From: a bacterium
Lineage (GTDB): Bacteria; Blakebacterota; Blakebacteria; Blakebacterales; Blakebacteraceae
NCBI GenBank assembly: GCA_025774615.1
Contig: JALGVQ010000077.1
Location: 1 to 13,380, forward strand
Direction: 5' to 3'
Length of the DNA: 13,380 nucleotides
Below the pieces are notes generated by a model. The model saw only the letters and a list, made by a program, of their open reading frames with translations. It was not told the DNA's origin and ran no database searches. This document shows, one piece after another, positions 13 to 12,866 of the stretch; positions within the stretch are counted from its first letter, which is position 1, and each line of letters begins with the position of its first letter. A program made the position numbers and the translations under genes.

Positions 13-1254
13 TCAGACTCCCGGGTCTGTAATCTTGCCAATGAAGAGAATGGTACCTGAACAGCGTTCACGAATGATGAAGATAAAGGGTCGATCCACG
101 ATCATTGTCTCAGGTCCGCTGCTGTAACCCATCTCGACCGAGGTGACTGCCGCAGCCTCTGTGCCCTTCTCATCCACTTTGATGAATGTCTTGTGCTTTA
201 CTTCGTTGATGAACAGGTTCGGCTGATTCTCTTCCAGGTACATACGGGTAAAGTTGGCCTGAAGGTCATCGAAAGCGATTCCCATCCCCATGGCGATCAG
301 TATGTCATTCAGGGTGATCTCATATTCGAGTTCGAACTTCGGCATCCCGAACAGAGCCAGCTCCTCGTGCCACCAGCGATCGGAAAGACTATCCCATTGT
401 TCGCTGCCGAAGCTGGCGATGAAAGCGTCAATATCCACACCGGAATCAGGCAGTATGATAGTCATGGTGAAGAGGCTGTCACCGTAGGCCAGATCCACCG
501 CCTGGTAGTCAGAACCGGAGCTCCTGCCAAGCTTGACGTCCTCGATGAACATCATCGGGACCTGCCGTGTTGATCCATCGGCCAGAGTGAAGGGTCGATC
601 CTCAGTGGCGCTCTCCCTGAACCGGTAGGTCCAGTCCCCCTTGAAGTAGATGGCGTTGATGAGGAACATCATCGTCATGGGATCTATCGGCTTCTCGACG
701 ATCTCCTCGATTTTACCATTCGTTTTCTCAACCACCCATGCGTTGATGATGTCGGCCGCGCCCGGGTTATTGAAATTCAGTCCCCGGACCTCGGCATCGA
801 AATATTCCTGGTTTACATCGATGAAAGGCTGTTCGATCGGAAAACTATCCCGATACCAGATCGAATTGGCGATCTCGAATTGGACCTTCGGATCGAGGTT
901 GGTAAGTAGATTAATGAGACTTCGATATGCCTGGTTGATCTCCTCCTCTGTAAGCCCTGCGAGTTCCAGGGTCTCCTTCATGACGGTATATGTCTCACCC
1001 GCCGCGCCATTCAGGGTCATACCGAGCGCCATCGAAATGCTCAGCGGGGAGATGAAGATATTATCTCCTCCCTCAGCGTCGGTGATCGCCTGGAAAAGAT
1101 TGAGACCGAAAATGTTTTCGGAAGTGATGAGCTCGACTTCCTGTTCACTGAGGACACGCGGGAGGGTTCTTCTGACTGGACTGGTCGGGCTGCCGCCACA
1201 TCCGACGAGAAGGGTGCCGGTAAAAATTGTTATGAGGATTCCGCTCCGAATCAT
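13..1254 (-). CDS. Serpin-family serine protease inhibitor, predicted lipoprotein
   Basis: A suicide-type protease inhibitor fold of 413 residues. The N-terminus is a lipoprotein signal: a hydrophobic stretch ending in lipobox L16-V17-G18-C19, followed by Gly-Gly-Ser, so the mature protein should be lipid-anchored and periplasmic or surface-exposed. Serpin hallmarks are the NAIYFKGDW segment mid-protein, the hinge EKGTEAAAVT (362-371), and the signature MIVDRPFIFII (384-394). The hinge is rich in small residues, as inhibitory serpins require for loop insertion. From P14 Thr365 to the Pro of the DRPF signature there are 24 positions, the same as in alpha-1-antitrypsin. That register puts P1-P1' at Ser378-Ser379, with Tyr at P2 and Met at P4. 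I chose the ATG at 1254 because AGGTG lies just upstream and the signal peptide starts there; a GTG at 1302 would add 16 residues without a visible site. It lies about 120 bp downstream of the hydrolase on the same strand. The family is certain; the target protease is unknown. Confidence 0.95.
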   Translation of the reverse strand: MIRSGILITIFTGTLLVGCGGSPTSPVRRTLPRVLSEQEVELITSENIFGLNLFQAITDAEGGDNIFISPLSISMALGMTLNGAAGETYTVMKETLELAGLTEEEINQAYRSLINLLTNLDPKVQFEIANSIWYRDSFPIEQPFIDVNQEYFDAEVRGLNFNNPGAADIINAWVVEKTNGKIEEIVEKPIDPMTMMFLINAIYFKGDWTYRFRESATEDRPFTLADGSTRQVPMMFIEDVKLGRSSGSDYQAVDLAYGDSLFTMTIILPDSGVDIDAFIASFGSEQWDSLSDRWWHEELALFGMPKFELEYEITLNDILIAMGMGIAFDDLQANFTRMYLEENQPNLFINEVKHKTFIKVDEKGTEAAAVTSVEMGYSSGPETMIVDRPFIFIIRERCSGTILFIGKITDPGV

Positions 1255-1374
1255 GGTCACCTGCTCCCGCGCCGGTTCTGCGATACTGGCCCGGTTTATC
1301 ACCAGACTGGAAAGAGTTCTTACAAGTATGAACGGACGGACGGTCGGTGTGGTTTACGTCTCCAACGCCGTGTT

Positions 1375-10399: not shown

Positions 10400-12655
10400 T
10401 TACACGCCTGATTGCCTGCCGTTCCCGTCCCGGGAGCCGAATGCTTCCTGCATGCTCCGGGAGAGGGATTCAAGGTGCTTCGCCACGCGATAATTGATCG
10501 ATCCAACCGGCCAGGTGCCATCCTCCTGGAGCTCTCCAGCCTCTACACCAGTCAGGATCTCTATGCCCTGGTCAACGTGTTCGATCGGGTAGATGTGGAA
10601 CTGACCGGCCTTGACGGCCTCGATCACTTCATCCTTCAGTTGCAGGTGGCGCACGTTTGACGCGGGGATCATCGCGCCCTGGGTTCCGGTAAATCCCTTC
10701 AGTTTGCAGGTATGGAACCATCCCTCGATTTTCTGGTTCGCTCCTCCGATCGCCTGCACCTCTCCCAGCTGATTCACCGATCCGGTAACCGCGAGATCCT
10801 GTCTGAGCGGTATGCGCGCCAGGGCGGACAGGAGGCAGTAGAGCTCGGTCGAGGAAGCGGAATCTCCGTCGACACCGTTGTAGAGCTGCTCGAAGGTCAG
10901 GCTTGCCGAGAAGGAGAGTGGATTCTCACGGGCATACCGGGAAGAGAAGAACCCCTGCAGGATCATCACACCCTTGTTGTGGATGTTCCCGGCCATATCG
11001 GTGTCGCGATCGATCTGTATGATCCCTGCCCTGCCGGCAAAGACACGCGCGGTGAGCCGCGAGGGCTTCCCGAATTCGTAGTCACCGAGGCTCAGCACCG
11101 CCAACCCGTTGATCTGCCCCTCGACACTCCCTTCGGTGTCCACAAGCACGGTACCCTCGGTGATCATCTCCTGGAGTCGTTCCTCGACCCGATTGGAACG
11201 GTAGACCTTTTCCTCTATCGCCTTCAAAACATGGTCACTGGAAACAATCTCGGATTCGTCCTGCTGGGCCCAGTAATCGGCTTCGCGAAGGAGATCGGCG
11301 ATTTCCACGAACCTGGTTGAGAGTTTCTCCTGGTCGGCTACGATCCGGCCGCCGTACTCGACGATCCGTGCCATGGCTGTCCGGTGGAAGGGCAGAAGAT
11401 GCTCTTCCCGCGCGCGGGAGGCTATGAATCCGGCATAGGCCGCCACCGTACCCTCATCCTGTGCCACGGTGTGTCCGAAATCGGCCTTCACCTTGAAAAG
11501 CTTGCGGAAATCCTCTTCATGCTGGTACAGGAGCATGCCGAGCATCGGAGATCCGATCATGATCACTTTAACGTCGAGTGGGATCGGTTCCGGTTTCAGT
11601 CCCTGGGTCTGGATCACCCGGAACTGGTCGTTCAGGTCCTCGAGATGGATCTCATGGGTCCGGAGAGCGCGCTTAAGGGCGTCCCAGGCTGTCGGGTTCT
11701 TCAGGACATCGAGTGCTTCGACGACGAGATATCCACCGTTTGCCTGATGCAGGGCGCCAGCCTTGATCATCGTGTAGTCAGTGGTCATGGTGCCCATGGT
11801 GGCCCGGTATTCCATGCGCCCGATCAGGTTATAAAAGGAGGGATTCGCTTCCATGATGACCGGAGCGCCTTCCCGGTCGCAGTTGTCGACCAGGACATTC
11901 ACTGCATACCGGATCAGGGGGTCGTCCTCCCTGGGCATCTTCATGCCCGGGATGGGCATCTGCGGCTGCTGCTGATCCTCCTCCTCCTTGAAGTCGTCCA
12001 GATTCGTCAGGACATCCTCTTTCAGTTCGTCCAGGTAATCGATAACCGTCTTGTGGGCCTCAAAAGCCTCCTTCACCTCATCGATCGCATGTGAGACGGG
12101 CATTGCCGCGATAACCCGTTCCAGATCCCGCAGTTTGTATTTGGCGCTTTTCTCAAGATCCCTGATCTGCCGGGTGATATCCCGCATCACCTTCTGAAGG
12201 TCCTCCTGATTCTCCTCCAGCGTGGTACGATCCTCCTCGGATAGTTCCTCCCACTCCTGTGACGACATCGGTTTGCCATCTTTGACCGGAAGGGTCAGTA
12301 TCCCACCACCCGACTGCTCGATCGTGAATCCGCGTTTTTCCGCCTCTGCCTTGAATCCGTTAAAGAGCTCATCCCGTTTTTCTGTCAGGTCCTTGACCAG
12401 AGTTGCTCTCCGCTCCTCATGGACCGTTCCCTCAAAAGCCTTCGGGATCTCTTCCTTCAGTTCCTCGAGCAGATCCTGTACCGCCTTCTTGAATTCACAA
12501 CCCATGCCGGCAGGCAGCCGGAGGGCTCTCGGGGAGTCCGGTTGGGCGAAGTTGTGGACGTAACACCAGTCATCCGGCGTGGGGCGTTCGGCGGCAGTCT
12601 GATTTACCGCGATCTTGATGGAGGTCTTTCTTCCCGTCCCCGACTCGCCGGCCAC
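10400..12655 (-). CDS. Lon-like AAA+ protease (LonB/LonC/YcbZ group), main reading frame; 5' end lost by frameshift
   Basis: ATP-dependent serine-lysine protease frame of 751 codons. It opens with the Walker A motif GESGTGRKT (residues 3-11), continues with the family segment PDDWCYVHNF (27-36) and LRLPAGMG (45-52), and has a long charged helical/coiled-coil insert (about 54-230). Next comes the rest of the AAA module, with GGYLVVEALD (307-316) in the Walker B position, DVKVIMIGSP (361-370) and the helical lid. The Lon protease domain occupies roughly 500-700, with catalytic Ser599 in DGDSAS and Lys642 in GGANQK, both present. Homologues normally start about 60 residues earlier, and that missing part is encoded at 12655-12825 in another frame. 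The GTG at 12655 has no well-placed ribosome-binding site, so translation would depend on reinitiation at the overlapping TAG-GTG. Without the strand that precedes Walker A, ATP binding is doubtful. It is probably co-transcribed with the TPR gene upstream and ilvE downstream. Confidence 0.85.
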   Translation of the reverse strand: MAGESGTGRKTSIKIAVNQTAAERPTPDDWCYVHNFAQPDSPRALRLPAGMGCEFKKAVQDLLEELKEEIPKAFEGTVHEERRATLVKDLTEKRDELFNGFKAEAEKRGFTIEQSGGGILTLPVKDGKPMSSQEWEELSEEDRTTLEENQEDLQKVMRDITRQIRDLEKSAKYKLRDLERVIAAMPVSHAIDEVKEAFEAHKTVIDYLDELKEDVLTNLDDFKEEEDQQQPQMPIPGMKMPREDDPLIRYAVNVLVDNCDREGAPVIMEANPSFYNLIGRMEYRATMGTMTTDYTMIKAGALHQANGGYLVVEALDVLKNPTAWDALKRALRTHEIHLEDLNDQFRVIQTQGLKPEPIPLDVKVIMIGSPMLGMLLYQHEEDFRKLFKVKADFGHTVAQDEGTVAAYAGFIASRAREEHLLPFHRTAMARIVEYGGRIVADQEKLSTRFVEIADLLREADYWAQQDESEIVSSDHVLKAIEEKVYRSNRVEERLQEMITEGTVLVDTEGSVEGQINGLAVLSLGDYEFGKPSRLTARVFAGRAGIIQIDRDTDMAGNIHNKGVMILQGFFSSRYARENPLSFSASLTFEQLYNGVDGDSASSTELYCLLSALARIPLRQDLAVTGSVNQLGEVQAIGGANQKIEGWFHTCKLKGFTGTQGAMIPASNVRHLQLKDEVIEAVKAGQFHIYPIEHVDQGIEILTGVEAGELQEDGTWPVGSINYRVAKHLESLSRSMQEAFGSRDGNGRQSGV

Positions 12656-12825
12656 TAGCCGTCAGCAACGACTCCGAGAGCGAATTCGATCGATTTCGCC
12701 GCTCTCGGTTGCCCGATCATGACGATCTCGGATTCCATCTCGGCGGTACTGTCTGCGGGGAAGACCGCGGGATCACAGTGGGTACGCAGTCGGTCAGGTG
12801 TCAGGGCAACCGGCCGGTCTGGCAT
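12655..12825 (-). pseudogene. N-terminal fragment of the Lon-like protease, out of frame with the rest
   Basis: A 56-codon frame from ATG 12825 with AAGGA 7 nt upstream (12833-12837), ending at TAG 12657-12655. Its product includes LTPDRLRTHCDP (8-19) and the stretch IGQPRAAKSIEFALGVVADG (37-56). This matches the usual start of the Lon-like family, in which a Cys-Asp-Pro element and an I-(G/I)-Q-x-x-A-x-x-(A/S)-(I/L)-x-F segment precede the P-loop. Homologues then read Gly-Tyr-Asn-Leu-Phe-Val before the glycine-rich Walker A. Here the Gly is followed by TA and then by GTG of the next frame, which fits loss of 10 nt. The fragment and the 751-codon frame together make one gene of normal length (about 810 residues). 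It could be a pseudogene, a coupled two-part gene or a sequence error. Confidence 0.85.
12674..12708. repeat. Inverted repeat inside the Lon N-terminal fragment
   Basis: CCGAGAGCG at 12674-12682 pairs perfectly with CGCTCTCGG at 12700-12708, around a 17-nt interior that itself holds the small palindromes GAATTC and ATCGAT. It ends 17 bp from the frameshift junction. It lies in sequence coding for conserved residues, so it may be chance. Confidence 0.55.
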
Positions 12826-12832
12826 GCGAAGA

Positions 12833-12837
12833 TCCTT
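12833..12837 (-). promoter_or_regulatory. Ribosome-binding site of the Lon-like gene
   Basis: AAGGA on the minus strand, 7 nt before the ATG at 12825. It shows that the original start of the Lon-family gene is here and not at GTG 12655. Confidence 0.65.
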
Positions 12838-12866
12838 GCTGAGGTTTGAAACAGTAAAAGCCGCTC

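Follow-up and report, generated by a model that had tools for sequence, protein, structure and literature searches.

LonC proteases are Lon-like enzymes that are not dependent on ATP hydrolysis, and the reference member from Meiothermus taiwanensis, MtaLonC, has degenerate Walker motifs and no ATPase activity (PMC3391209). MtaLonC (PDB 4FWD/4FW9 and others) is also the best solved match to the gene considered here, with E 4e-90 for the longer of its two frames and 5e-125 for the family profile. The gene lies on the minus strand of a 13,380-nucleotide stretch (the window) of the MAG G000, and its reading frame is interrupted by a 10-nt gap. At the other end of the window (16–1302, minus strand), this bacterial genome encodes a serpin with a lipoprotein-like N-terminus (E 2.7e-107). 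The features of the split gene are as follows.

12658–12825, minus strand: N-terminal fragment of the predicted LonC-type gene, 56 codons, starting at ATG 12825
12655–12657, minus strand: TAG stop of the first frame, with one G in common with the GTG (12655–12653) of the second
12655–12656, minus strand: position of the 10-nt loss, with TA (12657–12656) on one side and GTG (12655) on the other, placed by homologue residues and DNA alignment
10400–12655, minus strand: C-terminal frame, 751 codons, with a P-loop-like GESGTGRKT, the LonC helical insert, AAA_32, LonB AAA-LID, and Lon_C with Ser599/Lys642
12673–12842, minus strand: 5' block, 170 nt, unusually alike in this genome and a sister species (93% identity versus ~80% around it)

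Two frames and the junction between them

The open reading frames 12825–12655 (56 aa) and 12655–10400 (751 aa) were confirmed on the minus strand with the lengths and start codons given in the initial annotation, and the junction between them reads ...GCT GAC GGC TAG TGG CCG GCG... on that strand. Direct reading of the sequence for the 56-codon fragment shows AAGGATCTTCGCATG, and AAGGA upstream of ATG 12825 is a plausible ribosome-binding site. The proposal that the two frames are halves of one Lon-like gene was borne out by an intact homologue from the same family (L003) that matches both, such that the 56-aa frame aligns with its N-terminus (67% identity, E 1e-23) and the 751-aa frame with the remainder (71% identity); other homologues, too, match the 751-aa frame from end to end.

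The initial annotation had further predicted a loss of 10 nt between TA and GTG that would affect a Y-N-L/I-F/Y-V strand before the P-loop, and had proposed counting the missing bases in an alignment with homologues. That alignment, made at the DNA level with L002/L031 and L003, contains one gap in the window sequence, exactly 10 nt long and just before the P-loop. The residues preceding xxGxxGxG[KR] are GY/F-N-L/I/M-F/Y or a close variant in nearly all of the ~95 homologues, with [YF]-[NH]-[LIVM]-[FY] at the position of the window's gap, in agreement with the predicted strand. The frame break is present in the sequence, far beyond chance. It is absent from every one of the ~95 homologues read at that point, the N-terminus is lost in none of the homologues examined, and no second intact copy of the gene was found elsewhere in the window's genome.

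Protein identity and selection

Pfam domains on the 751-aa frame, comprising LonC_helical (PF20437, 65.2 bits versus a cut-off of 24), AAA_32 (PF13654), LonB AAA-LID (PF20436) and Lon_C (PF05362), assign the gene to the LonC type at the level of sequence. Of the two LonC insertions, CX3GLX(G/E) in the α3–β9 loop appears in the window as CKLKGFTG, with Phe in place of the Leu of the family consensus CKLKGLTG, and φ-X2-A-φ in helix α5 as VIEAV (VLEAV in MtaLonC), both gapless against MtaLonC. Assignment to the LonB equivalog (TIGR00764, NCBIfam) was rejected at 115.1 bits versus the curated cut-off of 516.6. The initial annotation had described the product as an AAA+ protease in which all motifs other than the lost strand are intact. 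The Lon-like part of this description stands, as does the catalytic dyad, with Ser599 conserved in 91 of 91 and Lys642 in 91 of 92 homologues covering the respective positions. However, AAA+ is too strong a term for a LonC-type protein with a degenerate ATPase site, and intactness does not extend to the ATPase motifs: Arg takes the place of the P-loop Lys in the window, as it does in 40 of 97 homologues, and in the Walker B region (GGYLVVEALD in the window) the catalytic Glu is missing family-wide, its position being mostly occupied by Ala, Val or Ile. The ATPase site of the LonC family is degenerate to begin with and MtaLonC lacks ATPase activity, so deleting the strand ahead of the P-loop would abolish no ATP motor known for the family, and the consequence first attached to this loss was overstated.

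The dN/dS of the downstream frame, another check that had been proposed, is 0.095 at dS ~1.0 against the sister genome G001, the only same-genus genome compared, indicating strong purifying selection. Two of 84 near-invariant family columns deviate in the window protein, both conservatively, and the N-terminal fragment is undecayed, with a dN of 0.064 at a gene-wide dS of ~1. Synonymous changes are scarce in the 5' block, where 4 were observed between the two species versus ~15 expected (binomial P 1.2e-5) and the first 23 codons of the gene hold none, while conservation of this stretch toward the outgroup is ordinary. An RNA element was rejected here, since no significant RNA structure is found in the block (fold z-score −0.01) and an Rfam search returned one chance-level match and nothing else. 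A repeated or mobile element was likewise rejected, the block being single per genome in G000 and G001. Such conservation is rare and not singular, since within 43 kb the start of a second gene (L125, STAS-like by reading) is conserved to the same degree. The similarity would be explained by recent interspecies exchange, by local constraint or by an assembly that mixed co-occurring relatives, and such a chimeric assembly, or a tangled one, might also account for the presence of both this gap and the sister's lesion described below at this end of the gene.

Origin of the gap

How did an otherwise constrained gene come to be split? The sister genome supplies a point that the initial annotation had not foreseen. 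On its contig JALGWK010000121.1 (L031), the 10 nt are present and the window's site has no gap, and the LonC-type gene is broken ~60 nt upstream by an 8-nt tandem duplication (CGGACAGC CGGACAGC) that shifts the frame to the same net phase as the window's gap. The C frame of G001 is open over 749 codons. Two other genomes of the phylum have the gene, G001 and the same-family genome G002, in which it is intact; a further phylum member (G003, 63% complete) gave no match to it. Because the lesions are different, lie at different places, and G002 is intact, the window's gap and the G001 duplication are independent.

To set these lesions against a baseline, ~155 kb of G000 contigs were aligned to G001 contigs, and a lesion was defined as an indel not divisible by three with the codon phase of substitutions continuing across it in one genome only; the names carB, ppdK, HD-GYP and rsmD used here come from reading translations. 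G001 carries a 31-nt out-of-frame deletion in fusA (L256, G001:C111, near 603; L133:14516), a gene that is intact in G000. G001 has no other canonical EF-G, as its second copy is a 40% paralogue that G000 has too. An apparent carB of G001 has an out-of-frame loss of 10 nt (L254, G001:C410, opposite L218:8071), an apparent ppdK a 22-nt tandem duplication (L148, G001:C10, opposite L129:3749), and two further genes are frame-broken by −49 and by a +22 tandem. In G000, the compared contigs hold, besides the LonC gap, one clear lesion and one N gap: a 76-nt out-of-frame loss in an HD-GYP-type gene (L119:9550–10150, minus strand), and an 11-N run within an rsmD-like gene (L125:15141–15151) that marks a scaffold join or masked stretch. 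Some 50 nt from that loss, the G001 copy of the HD-GYP-type gene contains an in-frame tandem duplication of 24 nt, making this the second gene with lesions paired between the two MAGs. On reading, apparent frame splits in a tRNA region, a LysM-like gene and the 5' end of a racemase proved to come from stop-to-stop frames upstream of true starts and were set aside. A placement of the lesions at long stretches identical across the two species is weakly supported (P 0.002, with detection bias).

A canonical fusA cannot plausibly be broken in a living cell, and most likely neither can carB, and a living cell would hardly carry breaks in fusA, carB and ppdK together; for this reason assembly error is indicated for lesions of this kind. 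The gap in the window is probably of the same origin, the LonC-type gene being intact and the assembly locally in error. Several observations favor this reading: no break occurs at this point in ~95 homologues, with G002 intact and G001 broken elsewhere; the gene has a low dN/dS, only two deviating columns of 84 and the dyad; the N-terminal fragment is undecayed; the break in the sister gene is of another type, and both genomes have lesions in other genes; and for samples of the sister's naming series, published work describes short-read assembly with IDBA-UD, a description not tied to the G001 bin or to G000 (PMC9727166). The initial annotation had instead regarded the loss as recent or tolerated, a biological interpretation that sits poorly with frame-breaking indels in both MAGs of the genus, in G001 even in fusA and the apparent carB and ppdK. 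Some points count against assembly error. The housekeeping-gene lesions belong to G001 and not to the window's own genome, for which the ~155 kb compared gave one further clear lesion and one N gap. The 10-nt gap is accompanied by neither an N run nor a repeat, and for one gene to be hit in both species at points ~60 nt from each other would have a chance of ~0.5% at the observed lesion rate by our own estimate, unless assembly is difficult at this spot or breakage is really tolerated there.

An alternative hypothesis is that the 10 nt were truly lost, through a very recent frameshifting deletion, and that in this strain the gene is either at an early stage of decay to a pseudogene or still gives a shortened LonC from a start within it, with the sister's lesion independent, equally real and located in the same dispensable N-terminal stretch. 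Both lesions do fall within the first 7% of the gene, the frames downstream are open and strongly constrained in both species, and an enzyme that does not need ATP hydrolysis (PMC3391209) could withstand a lesion close to its P-loop. However, the supposedly dispensable stretch is undecayed in both species and present in all homologues, in the sister no start codon is available to the C frame from the duplication up to the GTG, and no Shine-Dalgarno sequence precedes that GTG, and a comparable lesion lies in the sister's main fusA. We rank a recent deletion second, as less likely than an assembly error.

Much less credible is a functional two-cistron arrangement, in which translation from ATG 12825 would stop at TAG and reinitiate at GTG to give a separate peptide, or a coupled regulatory leader, in addition to the 751-aa enzyme. 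The TAGTG stop-start overlap, the common direction of the frame shift in both species and the unusually conserved synonymous sites of the first fragment would suit such an arrangement, but a common direction is a 1-in-2 chance, the sister's first frame continues beyond the GTG and so forms no overlap, the 5' block shows no significant RNA structure and no Rfam match above chance level, and the outgroup L003 has a plain single ORF. Programmed frameshifting was rejected, as neither lesion carries a slippery heptamer. A genus-specific coupled leader, split off as the N-terminal 56 codons by two independent frame breaks with selection on its nucleotide sequence, is the least probable proposal of all.

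Returning to assembly error, we infer two things, that the gap in the window is an artefact and that the enzyme is active. The living organism would then have one intact gene of ~810 codons for a soluble LonC-type protease, predicted to be a Ser/Lys peptidase that assembles as a hexamer, has a degenerate AAA-like module and degrades unfolded proteins with no ATP-driven unfolding step, and the gap would belong with the other short deletions and tandem duplications seen in both MAGs of this genus. Two cautions follow for short-read MAGs: indels of ~8–76 nt, with no homopolymers, can break conserved genes, and sister MAGs can break at nearly one spot, mimicking convergent gene decay. Should the gap prove real, it would offer a natural test of whether LonC needs the strand before its vestigial P-loop.

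Comparison with known Lon proteases

The window gene shares the AAA_32, LonB AAA-LID and Lon_C protease domains with archaeal LonB (TonLonB, PDB 3K1J). Unlike archaeal LonB, it is without the catalytic Walker B Glu and scores 115 versus 516.6 on the LonB equivalog. With MtaLonC it shares a protease domain that aligns gaplessly through the LonC-specific stretches, the Ser/Lys dyad, and a P-loop-like motif accompanied by a missing catalytic Walker B Glu. The differences from MtaLonC are that the window gene is split by the 10-nt gap in the assembly, that it would be longer when read with intact relatives (~810 codons versus 719 aa), and that it keeps GxxGxG[RK] more fully than the GPPSLGKHE of MtaLonC.
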